The notes under the pieces: model-generated | Database searches by the model: none | Told to the model about the DNA's origin: nothing | The model's input: the letters and a program-made list of their open reading frames with translations, nothing else | Program-made: the position numbers and the translations under genes | NCBI GenBank assembly: GCA_019240525.1 | Contig: JAFAYE010000001.1 | Coordinates: forward strand, 1 to 33,299 | Length of the DNA stretch: 33,299 bases | Source: Candidatus Eremiobacterota bacterium | Lineage (GTDB): Bacteria; Vulcanimicrobiota; Vulcanimicrobiia; Vulcanimicrobiales; Vulcanimicrobiaceae | Direction: 5' to 3' | Shown here: positions 27,475 to 32,898 of the stretch, piece after piece | Position numbering within the stretch: position 1 is the first letter of the stretch | How the letters are laid out: every line of letters begins with the position of its first letter

Positions 27475-28362
27475 CTAGGTTGGTTCGAGGAGCATCTTGC
27501 GGTAACTGGCGTACCGGCTCGCCGCCATCGCGCCATCGGAGACGGCCTCCCGCACCGCACAGCCGGGCTCCTGGAGGTGCGTACAATCCGTGAAGCGACA
27601 CCGAAGCCCCGTCTCGCGCGCTTCGGGAAAGCCTTGGGTCAGCGTTCGCGCGTCGATTTTTCCCAGGCCAAACTCGTTGATTCCGGGGCTGTCGATGAGA
27701 AAGCCCGTACCGAAACGGTACAGGCGCCCCGCCGTCGTGGTTTGACGGCCCAAGCCAAAACGCGAGACGTCGCCGATGACTGACTCTCCGCCGAGCGCGC
27801 GAAAGATCGTGCTCTTGCCGACGCCTGAGTTCCCGACGAGCAGTGCGCGGTGTCCGCTGATAAGCTCGCGCAAAGCCTCGAGATTTTCGGCTGTCTTGGG
27901 ATTGACGACGATCGTGTCGTACTCGAGCTGCCGGTAGAGTCCGACGAGGGCTTCGCGCTCGCCGGCATCGCCAAGGTCCGGCTTGGTAAACACGACGGCG
28001 GCGGCAATGTTCGCACCTTCGGCAAAGACGAGGAGCTGATCGAGCGTCACGAGCCGAGGCGGCGGATTCGCAAGGGCCGTGACGGTGACAAGCAGGTCGA
28101 CGTTCGCAGCCATCGTCTTCGCCCGCCCGCCCGCGCTGCGCCGCTGCAGGGTAAAGCCGCGATCTTCCAGACGCGTTACCAACGCTTGACCGTCTTCGAG
28201 AAGCCGAACCTCGGCGACGTCGCCGGGCACGGGCATGAAACGCTCGCCGGTCATTCGCGGCAGTTGCGCTACGCGTAAACCGCTTTCGCCATCAACCGAG
28301 ATGAGAGCGGAGTTCTTTCCCGTCGAAATGACGAGCGCTCGATGCGTTTGCGCTATCCGCAA
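27475..28362 (-). CDS. rsgA: Ribosome small-subunit-dependent GTPase RsgA
   Basis: The circularly permuted GTPase helps mature the 30S subunit. An N-terminal OB fold (VISTGKNSALISV) precedes the GTPase, in which G4 (FTKPDLGD) comes before G1 (GNSGVGKST) and G3 (DSPGI). The C-terminal zinc knuckle is CRFTDCTHLQEPGC. The start is uncertain. TTG 28362 gives 295 aa and begins nine residues before the OB fold, without a good ribosome site. ATG 28509 gives 344 aa but would overlap the divergent gene. Pairing with rpsT, another 30S gene, fits its role. Confidence 0.93.
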   Translation of the reverse strand: MRIAQTHRALVISTGKNSALISVDGESGLRVAQLPRMTGERFMPVPGDVAEVRLLEDGQALVTRLEDRGFTLQRRSAGGRAKTMAANVDLLVTVTALANPPPRLVTLDQLLVFAEGANIAAAVVFTKPDLGDAGEREALVGLYRQLEYDTIVVNPKTAENLEALRELISGHRALLVGNSGVGKSTIFRALGGESVIGDVSRFGLGRQTTTAGRLYRFGTGFLIDSPGINEFGLGKIDARTLTQGFPEARETGLRCRFTDCTHLQEPGCAVREAVSDGAMAASRYASYRKMLLEPT

Positions 28363-28398
28363 GATTGCACGGCTGAAACGGCCAACGATGCGACGAGC

Positions 28399-28932
28399 GT
28401 GATTTACTTGACCCTGAGGCTCATGGGAGAGATCGACGAGGCTCGCCGTGCGTCCGTTAACGAACGGCTGCGCGAAAAGAGTGGGTCCGCGATTTGGCGA
28501 GTCAACCAACGCGTTGGGCGGACGTATGCTTTATTGGAGCTTCCCGATCGGGAGAACCTCGACGCAATCGTCCAAGCCTCGGGCGGAACCTTATACGAGA
28601 AGCCGATCATCGCATTGGCACTTTTCCCTGCAGTGCCGGAAGCCTTGCCGTTGCTCCTCGAGGCCTTAGGGGGTGCCGGCCGGCCGGCGGGCGTGCTTGC
28701 ATGCGATTCGGAGCGCGGGGGGCTGGTCGTGGAATGGGACCCGTCGCTGACCGGCGCGGACGTCGTAATGGCCGTCGCGGACGCGGAACTGGCGCGCTGG
28801 CAGAGCGGACGTACTGCGGAACTCCTCGCACCGTTGCCGCCGTCGCTGGTGGCAACAATCGCAGCGAGCAGTTTACAGGCGCCGCAAATAGAAGAACGGC
28901 GCATTTTAGAGCTGCGGATCGATCGTGGCTAG
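28399..28932 (+). CDS. Unrecognised protein heading the cdaA operon
   Basis: This 177-aa protein starts at GTG 28399, where plausible coding begins (VIYLTLRLMGEIDEARRASVNERL). I recognise no family. It has no signal peptide or membrane segment and appears as mixed alpha/beta. A basic-acidic first helix, a strand pair around TYALLELPDRENLDAIVQASGG, and a later RGGLVVEWDPSLTGADVVMAVADAELARWQSG are the clearest elements. It overlaps cdaA by 8 nt, so translation is coupled to c-di-AMP synthesis. This makes a regulatory or partner role possible but unproved. An in-frame ATG at 28342 would extend it into the rsgA region. Confidence 0.75.
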   Translation: MIYLTLRLMGEIDEARRASVNERLREKSGSAIWRVNQRVGRTYALLELPDRENLDAIVQASGGTLYEKPIIALALFPAVPEALPLLLEALGGAGRPAGVLACDSERGGLVVEWDPSLTGADVVMAVADAELARWQSGRTAELLAPLPPSLVATIAASSLQAPQIEERRILELRIDRG

Positions 28933-29785
28933 CCCCTTCGGCTACGTTAGCATCTCCGACGTCGTCGACGTTATCGCGACGAGCATTCTCATTTACTACG
29001 TCCTGCTGCTGATTCGCGGCACTCGAGCCGTGCAAATTCTCATCGGCATTCTGGTTTTGCTGGGATTGCTCGGCATCGCGACGCTCCTGCATCTGACATT
29101 GCTCGGAACCATTTTGCGCTTAGTGTTGGTCGGCGCCGCGGTAACGATTGCCATTGTATTTCAGCCGGAGTTGCGCCGCGCGCTCGAACAGATTGGCCGC
29201 GGCGGCCTCTTTCGCATGGAGACCGAACACGGCGCCGGCGGACGGACCGAAGATCGCGCAATTGCCGTTATTGCCGGAACCGCATTCGTCCTCGGACGCG
29301 CTCGCCGAGGGGCCTTAATCGTCATCGAACAACACAGCGGATTGAAGGATTATTGCGAAACCGGTACGATGCTCCACGCCGACCTCTCCGAAGAGTTGCT
29401 CGTGTCGATTTTTGCGGCGGGCTCGCCGCTGCATGACGGCGCGGTCGTCGTACGGGAAGGGCGCATCGAGGCCGCACGGTGTTTGCTGCCGCTTTCTGAG
29501 CAATCACCGGCGCGGAGCCGGCTCGGCACGCGCCACCGGGCGGCGATCGGGCTGACCGAGCAGACTGACGCCGTCGTGCTCGTCGTCTCGGAACAGACCG
29601 GGGCCATCACGATTGCGCGCGCCGGGCTCCTCTCGAGGCCAGTCGACGAAGAGCAACGACTGATCAAGATGCTGCTGGCCGTGACCCGGCCGCCGCGCGA
29701 CCGGCGCCGACGCGGAGATCTCATTGCCACCCTCCGCTCGCGTCTGCGAACGCAACGCGGAGAACCCCAATCGCGGGTCTCCTGA
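28925..29785 (+). CDS. cdaA: Diadenylate cyclase CdaA
   Basis: The 286-aa membrane enzyme joins two ATP into c-di-AMP. Three membrane segments fill residues of about 12-80. The DAC domain follows with the catalytic DGA (171-173) and RHR (203-205) motifs, together with LHADLSEELLVSIFA and GSPLHDGAVVV. A C-terminal basic tail (RRRRGDLIATLRSRLRTQRG) is longer than I would expect. GTG 28925 overlaps the preceding gene by 8 nt. cdaA-cdaR-glmM order is the classic arrangement, in which CdaR and GlmM tune CdaA activity. Confidence 0.96.
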   Translation: MASPFGYVSISDVVDVIATSILIYYVLLLIRGTRAVQILIGILVLLGLLGIATLLHLTLLGTILRLVLVGAAVTIAIVFQPELRRALEQIGRGGLFRMETEHGAGGRTEDRAIAVIAGTAFVLGRARRGALIVIEQHSGLKDYCETGTMLHADLSEELLVSIFAAGSPLHDGAVVVREGRIEAARCLLPLSEQSPARSRLGTRHRAAIGLTEQTDAVVLVVSEQTGAITIARAGLLSRPVDEEQRLIKMLLAVTRPPRDRRRRGDLIATLRSRLRTQRGEPQSRVS

Positions 29786-29797
29786 CGAGGGCTCTCC

Positions 29798-30466
29798 TTG
29801 CAGATCATTCGCAAGAACTTCGCGCTTAAAGTGCTCGCGCTCGTGCTCGCCATCGTCGGCTGGGCGTATTTCCGCCTCGCCGGCAACCCGATCGTCGCGA
29901 CCCCGCAATTTCAACAGTTGTCGATTCCGATCGCCGGTGTCAACATGCCGTTGGGGTACGTCGCTCGTTTTAGCGATCATCAGGCAGTCGTGAACGTCGA
30001 GACCAAATCCGGGGAGCCCGCGGTCAAGCCGGAAGAAATCAAAGCCGTGCTGGATCTTTCGAACAAGACGAGCGGCGTGTATAACGTCCCCGTGCAACTC
30101 GTGGCGCCCAACGTCGTCGTACAGAGCTTGAGCCCGGCGTCCGTGACGTTGACCATCGAAAAGATCGAAGCGCGTTCGTTTCCGATCACGGTTCATTACG
30201 TCGGCGCACTTCCCACCGGGGTTGTCGTGAGCTATACGACGATCGGTCCCGACGCGGCGACGGTGCGAGCGCCCGCATCATTGCTCGGTCAGATCGCCGC
30301 ACTTCATGCCGACGTCGCGCTTCCAAATCAACCCAAGACACTCGACGAAATGGTGCGCCCGATTCCTGTTGACGCCTCCGGGCTCGAGCTGAGCGATGCC
30401 GCCGTCTCACCGAATCTCGTGCGCGTGCAGATACGCGTCGTGGCGGCGGCCGGCGCGCCCCAGTGA
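29798..30466 (+). CDS. cdaR: CdaA regulatory protein CdaR (YbbR-like)
   Basis: The 222-aa protein has one N-terminal membrane segment (KVLALVLAIVGWAYFRLAG, about 11-29) and an outside part with YbbR-like repeats. Examples are IPIAGVNMPLGYVA, VPVQLVAPNVVVQSLSPASVTLTIE and FPITVHYVGALPTGVVV. CdaR is known to bind CdaA and alter c-di-AMP output from the cell-wall side. TTG 29798 follows GAGGG by about 6 nt. The end overlaps the glmM start by 4 nt. Only about two and a half repeats fit, fewer than the four of Bacillus YbbR. Confidence 0.92.
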   Translation: MQIIRKNFALKVLALVLAIVGWAYFRLAGNPIVATPQFQQLSIPIAGVNMPLGYVARFSDHQAVVNVETKSGEPAVKPEEIKAVLDLSNKTSGVYNVPVQLVAPNVVVQSLSPASVTLTIEKIEARSFPITVHYVGALPTGVVVSYTTIGPDAATVRAPASLLGQIAALHADVALPNQPKTLDEMVRPIPVDASGLELSDAAVSPNLVRVQIRVVAAAGAPQ

Positions 30467-31824
30467 GCCGGCTCTTCGGCACCGATGGAATCCGCGGCGT
30501 AGCGAATCGCGAGCTTACGCCCGAACTGGCGCTACGTGTCGGGCGTGCGGCCGCCGTGGTGCTCCTCGATGCAGCGGAGGCGAACCGGCCGATTCTCGTG
30601 GGACGCGATACTCGATTGTCGGGCACCATGCTCGAGGCGGGTTTGATCGCTGGAATCACATCGGCGGGAAGAGACGCAACCTCGCTGGGCATCGTGCCGA
30701 CACCAGCCGTTGCGTGCGTGACCCGAGCCATCGGAGCTGCTGGAGGCGCCGTTATCAGCGCGTCGCACAATCCCATTGCCGACAACGGCATTAAATTCTT
30801 TGGCTCGGATGGTTTTAAACTTTCCGACGAGCTCGAGGACCGTATCGAAGCATTGCTCGGATCGAGCGATATTCCCAGGCCGACGGGTGCCGGGGTCGGA
30901 ATCGCGCGTGTCGCGCAAAATCTCGCGCGGCATTACTATAGCGCGCTCTATGAGGGGGCCGCCGATCTCAACGGCTTGCACGTGGTCGTCGATTGCGGCC
31001 ATGGTGCGGCATATGCCGTTGCGCCGTATGCGTTGCGCAAGCTGGGGGCGCGAGTGACCGAGATGAACTGCGATGCCGATGGCGGTCGCATCAATGTCGC
31101 ATCCGGAGCAACCGACCTGCGCGGGCTCCAAGCGGCGGTTCGCCAAAGAATTGACGCTGGCGAGCGCCGCGTCATTGGTGTCGCCTTTGACGGGGACGCC
31201 GACCGGGCACTCTTCGTCGATGAAACCGGCACGGCAATCACCGGCGACCACGTACTCTTCGCTTTAGGGCGATCGATGCAACGCCGCGGTGAGTTGGCAG
31301 GCAACACGATCGTCGCAACGTTGATGAGTAACGTCGGATTCGAGCGCGCCTTGCGAAAGCACGGTCTCAATTTGATTCGGACTGCCGTCGGCGATCGCTA
31401 CGTCCTCGAACGAATGCGGGCCGGTGGTTTCGTCCTGGGCGGCGAGCAATCGGGCCATGCCATCGACTTTCGCTACAATACCACCGGCGATGGCCCGCGC
31501 ACGGCGATAACGCTACTCAGCATCGTTGCGCAGGAGCAGACGACCTTGCACGATTTGGTTCGGGAGATCGTCTATGCGCCGCAGATGCTGCTGAACGTCC
31601 GGAGCGAGCGACGCGACGTTCTCGAGTTGCCGGTGATTCGCGACGCGATCGCGTCGGCTCAAGCGCAGCTCGGCGAAGCGGCGCGACTCGTGGTTCGTGC
31701 GTCGGGAACCGAACCGCTGATCCGGGTGATGGCGGAGGGCGAAGACCGCGACGCCGTCGAGCAAACCGTCCGGCATCTTGTGTCGCAAATCGAGCAGGAG
31801 GTAGGGCGCTCGGTTTCAACGTAA
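30463..31824 (+). CDS. glmM: Phosphoglucosamine mutase
   Basis: The 453-aa enzyme converts glucosamine 6-phosphate to glucosamine 1-phosphate for UDP-GlcNAc and cell-wall synthesis. It opens with LFGTDGIRGVAN. The phospho-Ser loop is ISASHNP with Ser101, the Mg site is DGDADR (243-248), the sugar loop is GGEQSGH, and the phosphate-binding loop is RASGTEPLIRVMAEG. The GTG start overlaps cdaR by 4 nt. In Firmicutes GlmM binds and inhibits CdaA, so the operon links precursor supply and c-di-AMP. Confidence 0.97.
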   Translation: MSRLFGTDGIRGVANRELTPELALRVGRAAAVVLLDAAEANRPILVGRDTRLSGTMLEAGLIAGITSAGRDATSLGIVPTPAVACVTRAIGAAGGAVISASHNPIADNGIKFFGSDGFKLSDELEDRIEALLGSSDIPRPTGAGVGIARVAQNLARHYYSALYEGAADLNGLHVVVDCGHGAAYAVAPYALRKLGARVTEMNCDADGGRINVASGATDLRGLQAAVRQRIDAGERRVIGVAFDGDADRALFVDETGTAITGDHVLFALGRSMQRRGELAGNTIVATLMSNVGFERALRKHGLNLIRTAVGDRYVLERMRAGGFVLGGEQSGHAIDFRYNTTGDGPRTAITLLSIVAQEQTTLHDLVREIVYAPQMLLNVRSERRDVLELPVIRDAIASAQAQLGEAARLVVRASGTEPLIRVMAEGEDRDAVEQTVRHLVSQIEQEVGRSVST

Positions 31825-31909: not shown

Positions 31910-31944
31910 ACGATGCTCTTTGGAAGTTCCTCTACCTATACTAG

Positions 31945-32073
31945 GTCACTGAGTCGGAACCGAAGTTCCGAGCGGGGGATATCCCGGCAGGGGTGAATGG
32001 GCCGGTCGGCCCTAGGGCGATTCTTTCACGTCCGAACCCGTCAACTAACCCCGCAAGTGTCGTGAAAGAGGAG
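31945..32073 (+). promoter_or_regulatory. ydaO/yuaA (c-di-AMP) riboswitch with adjoining ribosome site
   Basis: The aptamer spans about 31945-32061 and contains the hallmark segments in order: GAGCGGGGGAT, GGGGTGAAT, CTAGGGCGA and TCCGAACCCGTCAACTAACC. These align with the Thermoanaerobacter ydaO aptamer (CGGAGGAACCGC, GGGGUUAAUC, GUAGGGAUA, CCGCACCCGACAGCUAAC). The outer helix P1 may be CACT 31947-31950 with AGTG 32056-32059. TCTTTCACG inside the aptamer (32022-32030) is fully complementary to CGTGAAAGA (32061-32069), which overlaps the AGAGGAG ribosome site (32067-32073). This suggests control of translation initiation. It precedes a cell-wall hydrolase gene, a known target class of this riboswitch. 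Confidence 0.9.
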
Positions 32074-32080
32074 CGGTTTC

Positions 32081-32686
32081 TTGCGTTATGCGTTAGCTGT
32101 AGGGGCACTGGCCCTATCGATTGCCGGTTCCGGTGCAATTGCCCGAGCCGGCGGCAGCCCACCCCAAGTCGATTATTTTGGAGCTACCGAAAGCACCAAT
32201 GCCCAAGCACTGAGCCCCGATGTCGCCGAATGGACGTCGCGGCTGATCGTTACCACCCAGCCGCGGCATCATAACGGGATCGAGCGTTTCGCCGGCGGAA
32301 TTCTTGCCCGAACCTCGAGGATCGCTCAGCGCCTGACCAGCAGCGCGCTTCGCTTCCTCGGCGTCCCGTACGTTTTCGGCGGCACGACAGCCTCCGGCTT
32401 TGATTGCTCGGGCTTCGTTCAGCACGTCTTCGCTCTGCTCGGCGTCGAATTGCCGCGAACCGCCGACGCTCAATACGACGTTGGCCGGCCGGCGCTGGGC
32501 GGTCCACGGCCCGGCGACCTCGTTTTCTTCGATACTTATGGTGGCGTATCGCACGTCGGCATCTATCTCGGAGGGGGCCAGTTCGTCCACGCCAGCTCTT
32601 CCCATGGGGTCATGGTCAGCCGGCTATCGGAATCGTACTGGGCTTCGCGGTATGTCGGCGCGAAGCGCCTTCTCGCTTCACGGTAG
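32081..32686 (+). CDS. Secreted NlpC/P60 cell-wall endopeptidase
   Basis: The 201-aa protein has a signal peptide (about 1-23, cleavage after ARA). A linker follows, and then an NlpC/P60 domain from about residue 85. The catalytic triad is visible: Cys109 in FDCSGFVQHVF, His158 in GVSHVGIYLGGG, and the third polar residue His170 in QFVHASSS. PGDLVFFD is also typical. Such enzymes cut D-Glu-diaminopimelate bonds in peptidoglycan stems. No SH3 or LysM wall-binding module is present. TTG 32081 follows GAGGAG by 7 nt, and the upstream c-di-AMP riboswitch should control it. Confidence 0.94.
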   Translation: MRYALAVGALALSIAGSGAIARAGGSPPQVDYFGATESTNAQALSPDVAEWTSRLIVTTQPRHHNGIERFAGGILARTSRIAQRLTSSALRFLGVPYVFGGTTASGFDCSGFVQHVFALLGVELPRTADAQYDVGRPALGGPRPGDLVFFDTYGGVSHVGIYLGGGQFVHASSSHGVMVSRLSESYWASRYVGAKRLLASR

Positions 32687-32826: not shown

Positions 32827-32898
32827 TGGGGTGTAGCCAAGTGGTAAGGCAGCGGACTTTGACTCCGCCATTCGTTGGTTCGAATCCAGCCACCCCAG
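32827..32898 (+). tRNA. tRNA-Gln (anticodon TTG)
   Basis: The 72-nt gene folds as a cloverleaf. The acceptor TGGGGTG pairs with CACCCCA, with discriminator G32898. The D arm is GCCAAGTGGTAAGGC. The anticodon stem is GCGGA/TCCGC with loop CTTTGAC (anticodon TTG), and the T arm is GTTGG-TTCGAAT-CCAGC. The initial U-A pair is typical of tRNA-Gln. CCA is not encoded. Confidence 0.97.

Follow-up and report, generated by a model that had tools for sequence, protein, structure and literature searches.

What does a 177-residue protein of no recognised family do at the head of a diadenylate cyclase operon? The question arose in a stretch of 33,299 nucleotides from a Candidatus Eremiobacterota bacterium (hereafter the window), for which a first-pass annotation had reported an open reading frame of 177 amino acids as the first gene of the cdaA operon, overlapping cdaA by 8 nt, and had remarked that the usual cdaA operons begin with cdaA itself. 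The sequence and the Pfam assignments of the neighbouring genes bear out this description, and the remark agrees with the gene order in Firmicutes, where cdaR and glmM lie downstream of cdaA (PMC8573169). The gene, here called X, occupies positions 28399..28932 of the forward strand, from a GTG start codon to a TAG stop codon (28930-28932). It is followed on the same strand by cdaA (28925..29785, GTG start, Pfam CdaA_N and DAC), with an overlap at 28925..28932, by ybbR/cdaR (29798..30466, Pfam YbbR) and by glmM, encoding phosphoglucosamine mutase (30463..31824); rsgA (27475..28362, reverse strand, Pfam RsgA) is its divergent neighbour.

The rsgA start is a TTG near 28362, placed by eye from relatives, which leaves a gap of about 36 nt to X. 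The rsgA-X intergenic stretch is very short (about 28335-28399), and GCAAGATTG around the rsgA start is common to several relatives. An alternative start for X, the ATG at 28342 (196 amino acids), was rejected as unlikely because in close relatives the gene starts at this GTG or at an ATG that replaces it. A c-di-AMP riboswitch is present just past glmM (31937-32075, forward strand, Rfam RF00379, 78.3 bits), and the organism therefore very probably uses this signal. The riboswitch directly precedes an NlpC/P60 open reading frame (32081-32686), which suggests that a cell-wall hydrolase is under c-di-AMP control next to the operon responsible for c-di-AMP synthesis. At its two ends the window carries the end of a 23S rRNA gene followed by a 5S rRNA gene (1-1395) and, further on, a tRNA gene (32827-32898).

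The distribution of X was determined in a sample of 117 genomes of the class, 99 from family f1, 4 from f2 and 14 from f3. A profile of 49 X proteins found X in 97 of the 103 f1 and f2 genomes, and the diadenylate cyclase domain (DAC) was found in 96. In all 96 genomes with a cyclase, X lies directly upstream of it on the same strand, the X match and DAC being 345-388 nt apart. The six f1 and f2 genomes without X have no cyclase match either. The lack of both X and cdaA in G007 (98% complete) was dropped as a case of joint loss, the contig carrying glmM ending near ybbR in an assembly gap. G105 is the sole f1 or f2 genome with X and no DAC match; a cdaA start follows X immediately and the contig then ends. 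Weak second matches to X occurred in G054 and G113, and a second DAC match in G127.

Among 22 X sequences, the 14 pairs of highest similarity had dN/dS values of 0.18-0.45, indicating purifying selection; from this range and its presence in 97 of 103 genomes, X is conserved beyond chance. Over the 49 X proteins, 14 columns are at least 90% conserved, one of them the start methionine, and they include a glycine-rich loop and acidic positions. Outside the class, in the same phylum, nine loci (from the cdaA of 14 genomes) have another same-strand open reading frame of at least 80 amino acids ending about 200 nt or less upstream of cdaA; none of the nine matched X, its f3 form or glutamate formimidoyltransferase (FtcD, see below), and the window protein matched none of 19 phylum genomes from outside the class. 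A genome scan with a single peptide pattern returned 13 loci in Candidatus Eremiobacterota / Eremiobacteria, the pattern being too insensitive to infer absence from other phyla. At seven loci from other classes of the phylum (L073, L075-L077, L079, L082, L085), cdaA is preceded by a protein of about 310-390 amino acids, which by eye resembles a spermidine-synthase-type enzyme.

The 25 nt before the GTG of cdaA in the window contain no AGGA, GGAG or GAGG core. Together with the 8-nt overlap, this lack of a Shine-Dalgarno-like core makes translational coupling of X and cdaA plausible at this locus. The upstream reading frame overlaps the cdaA start at 54 of 63 loci (starts chosen mechanically). 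A Shine-Dalgarno-like core was present before cdaA at 22 of the 63, compared with 10% of random windows, so cdaA does not necessarily depend on coupling everywhere.

The same annotation had stated that X matches no family, and for the single sequence this was correct: the window protein had no significant match in Pfam, NCBIfam or PADLOC (best Pfam E 0.62, to MHYT, rejected as chance), and a search of the PDB sequences with it gave nothing useful. The statement did not survive the use of profiles. In family f3, the counterpart of X, that is the open reading frame before cdaA, is 277-348 amino acids long, and three alignments were built to connect the forms. A1 holds 49 X proteins (48 relatives and the window protein), 14 of the 63 f1 and f2 loci being excluded (L025, L057 and 12 forms that were short or doubtful at the N-terminus). 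A2 holds seven long forms from the 13 f3 genomes with X, leaving out five genomes without a detected cyclase and G069, in which X is split. A3 holds 20 canonical FtcD proteins from 31 FtcD loci fetched. Compared with hhalign, A1 matched A2 (E 7.2e-6, probability 84.3, 97 columns) and A2 matched A3 (E 4.9e-10, probability 96.6, 256 columns). The direct comparison of A1 with A3 gave E 1.4e-4 over 112 C-terminal columns, with a probability of only 52.9. All 13 controls with reversed, column-shuffled or CdaA alignments had E of at least 0.15.

Of five f3 forms compared with the NCBIfam FtcD model TIGR02024, four matched its C-terminal part weakly (E 2.5e-4 to 0.1); the five forms scored at most 20.1 bits, compared with a cut-off of 221.25. 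The Pfam FTCD models matched none of six f3 forms, and a canonical FtcD from a relative passed both (PF07837 and PF02971). In a search of the whole class, the A2 profile picked canonical FtcD in three genomes and f1 X in two (E 3.2e-5 to 9.5e-4). Searches of the PDB sequences with the A2 profile and with a single f3 form found no match; with the A1 profile the sole match was PilM (E 0.038), which had no passing stretch and was rejected as chance. The window's genome encodes canonical FtcD in a gene of its own (C1:480979-481794), and FtcD is matched in 91 of 98 relatives, in 89 of them above the cut-off. That X is a shrunken derivative of glutamate formimidoyltransferase, and a member of the formiminotransferase superfamily by descent, is well supported. 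We file it as FtcD-derived and not as FtcD, because it falls below the family cut-off and does not keep the catalytic residue.

The structure prediction proposed with the first-pass annotation leads in the same direction. An AlphaFold model of X built from 14 sequences (mean pLDDT 89, pTM 0.81) has two b-a-b-b-a-b units. Residues 1-68 (28399..28602) form the first ferredoxin-like unit and are taken, on the model and the VIA alignment, as the counterpart of the core of the formiminotransferase N-subdomain; this unit is unmatched in about a third of the relatives. Residues 69-147 (28603..28839) form the second ferredoxin-like unit, which the model and hhalign identify as the counterpart of the C-subdomain; in all 97 genomes with X the best match extends over this unit, the match in G019 being shortened at an N stretch. 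Residues 148-177 (28840..28929) comprise a helix (148-158) and a low-confidence C-terminal helix with a conserved Leu-Glu; all three segments are on the forward strand.

The formiminotransferase domain 1QD1 was aligned with the model over 168 of 177 residues (Z 9.6, rmsd 3.8). By Z it was second to a designed two-unit protein (Z 10.7) and the highest natural protein among the matches listed; by Foldseek E-value it was only 13th (7.9e-4), and its query TM-score of 0.61 was the top value among the 50 matches listed. Single-unit ferredoxin-like folds (HMA, ACT-type, PII, ribosomal S6) matched one unit of X with Z of about 7.5-9; these folds are common, and the matches were given no weight as evidence of relationship. 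PstA (4rwx), a PII-like c-di-AMP receptor, matched one unit only (Z 7.7 over 64 residues), a score shared by many ferredoxin-like folds.

Has the derived protein kept the activity of its ancestor? In the pig enzyme, His82 is the proposed catalytic base (PMC12622545). A histidine occupies this column in 20 of 20 canonical FtcD proteins and in one of the seven long f3 forms. Among 45 aligned positions that are invariant in FtcD, 12 are retained in at least five of the seven f3 forms and 33 are lost. The window protein has no residue aligned to the catalytic histidine, as its profile match is limited to the C-terminal part, and at 177 residues, compared with about 300 in FtcD, it is shorter by about 120. 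The reduction in size is graded, from about 280 to about 115 amino acids. The match to X begins at model position 40 or beyond in 29 of the 97 genomes, where roughly the C-terminal unit alone remains, and at positions 20-39 in six more (some matches read through a stop). C-terminal-only forms of about 112-131 amino acids occur in several genera (L048, L049, L054, L057, L168, L169), which suggests that the first unit is dispensable. Judged from these sequences, the series from FtcD through the long f3 form and the 177-residue X to a lone C-terminal unit speaks for a pseudoenzyme in which selection keeps the C-terminal unit. The first-pass annotation had held that a clear match to an unrelated enzyme family would refute a role of X with the cyclase; descent from FtcD touches on this argument, yet no active enzyme seems to remain.

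Family f3 includes genomes with X and no detected cyclase. In five of its 14 genomes (L127-L131, three genera) no DAC domain was detected. None of the five had a YbbR match or a c-di-AMP riboswitch; the riboswitch was found in eight of the nine f3 genomes with DAC and in five of five f1 or f2 genomes searched, and YbbR in six of the nine. The YbbR family search is weak here, missing three of nine f3 genomes with a cyclase (among them G069, where a YbbR-like frame is seen by eye at L137), so the absence of YbbR from the five counts mainly alongside the direct junction of X and glmM. All five have a stop-free X frame. From the end of its stop to the conserved FGTD motif, which lies close to the start of GlmM, there are 8 nt in four genomes and 20 nt in the fifth; with the in-frame Met, Val or Leu shown as the first residue of GlmM, X and glmM would overlap by 4 nt. 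Among the nine f3 genomes with DAC, X is whole and adjacent in seven; in G069 it is split over two contigs, its end lying beside cdaA, and in G074 DAC is at a contig edge and X was not found. The five genomes thus seem to have lost the cyclase, YbbR and the riboswitch together, X staying next to glmM. The f3 FtcD tree has low resolution, with 8 of 15 inner branches open, and the cyclase-less label needs two changes on it, which corresponds to one or two losses.

The rate of evolution of X was compared with that of FtcD in 12 of the 14 f3 genomes. The median X-to-FtcD divergence ratio was 3.27 in the cyclase-less five (10 pairs) and 2.38 in the seven others (21 pairs). Faster evolution in the five speaks for a partial loss of constraint, affecting a part of X function that is related to CdaA. 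As the gene is still there, either X has a role independent of c-di-AMP or the time for decay has been too short.

The reading that we prefer, to which we give a probability of about one half, is that X is a non-catalytic FtcD derivative recruited to the first position of the cdaA-cdaR-glmM operon, where it acts as an accessory protein of the CdaA-CdaR-GlmM module and is more likely anchored on GlmM. We infer a function as a module subunit, the link to the module being one of gene order only. X would be a small cytosolic subunit whose synthesis is tied to that of CdaA by the overlapping start, and its retained C-terminal unit would serve as a binding surface. Its primary partner would more likely be GlmM, or the amino-sugar and cell-wall branch that GlmM serves, since X outlives CdaA and CdaR beside glmM in one family. 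The Firmicutes proteins CdaA, CdaR and GlmM assemble into a complex, and GlmM inhibits CdaA by blocking its oligomers (PMC8573169); X might adjust CdaA activity through this GlmM-CdaA contact. Two considerations weigh against a GlmM role: the faster divergence of X in the cyclase-less genomes could be decay after the loss of CdaA, and the adjacency of X and glmM may be a mere remnant of a cdaA-ybbR deletion.

An alternative is the one that the first-pass annotation had proposed, in which X is a cytosolic partner or regulator dedicated to CdaA; its survival without CdaA would then be slow decay. The adjacency in 96 of 96 f1 and f2 genomes with a cyclase match, the overlap with the cdaA start at 54 of 63 loci and the faster evolution of X where CdaA is undetected all stand on its side. 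A stop-free X overlapping glmM in five of five f3 genomes from three genera, with no detected cyclase, riboswitch or YbbR, means that a partnership limited to the cyclase does not account for the retention of X; the proposal is partly supported, and we consider an exclusive CdaA partner rather unlikely. The overlaps at the 54 loci, and that with glmM where cdaA is undetected, would also be expected if X were mainly an upstream coding region that sets the translation of cdaA (or glmM) by termination-reinitiation, the protein itself having little function. The dN/dS values, the 14 conserved columns and the confidently predicted compact fold argue against this, and make it very doubtful.

Conserved columns can also be read differently. 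The glycine-rich loop and the acidic positions among them, together with the formiminotransferase ancestry, would suit a protein with a ligand-binding site still in use, for folate, glutamate or some other small molecule, which would make X a metabolite sensor or an enzyme of altered chemistry. This is improbable, given that 33 of the 45 invariant FtcD positions are gone already in the long forms and that a match starting at position 40 or beyond, as in 29 of 97 genomes, leaves little room for a formiminotransferase site. A bolder version of the accessory-protein reading, to which we give little credence, is that the dead formiminotransferase is a fourth, metabolite-responsive subunit which links a one-carbon or amino-acid signal to the synthesis of cell-wall precursors and to c-di-AMP, and which stayed a regulator of GlmM where c-di-AMP was given up.

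On the accessory-protein reading or any other, nearly all genomes of one bacterial class have at the head of the cdaA operon an extra protein with an identifiable enzyme ancestor. The five f3 genomes that apparently gave up c-di-AMP and still have X at glmM serve as a natural experiment, in which a role with GlmM can be told apart from one with the cyclase. In the paper library searched, no literature was found that links formiminotransferase with CdaA or with c-di-AMP, or Eremiobacterota with c-di-AMP; for Eremiobacterota with GlmM, only community studies were found, in which GlmM probably denotes a statistical model.

X resembles the formiminotransferase domain of FtcD/FTCD (TIGR02024; 1QD1) in its two ferredoxin-like units in equal order, in a C-terminal subdomain detectable by profiles and in a fold match of 168 residues. 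It differs from FtcD in its size (177 compared with about 300 residues), its sub-cut-off scores and the catalytic histidine, which is not kept in the long relatives, and also in its place at the cdaA operon, or beside glmM in five f3 genomes, canonical FtcD being encoded separately in the window's genome. The name of human FTCDNL1 marks it as a relative of the formiminotransferase N-subdomain. It would thus, by its name, also be a partial formiminotransferase-type protein, but one in which the N-subdomain is kept, whereas the X lineage keeps the C-subdomain. Knowledge of how CdaA is regulated is described as incomplete, even for systems with known CdaR and GlmM (PMC13289029). Like CdaR/YbbR and GlmM, the CdaA regulators of Firmicutes, X is encoded in an operon with CdaA, and by inference it would belong to the same functional module (PMC8573169); unlike them, it matches neither of their Pfam families and lies upstream of cdaA.
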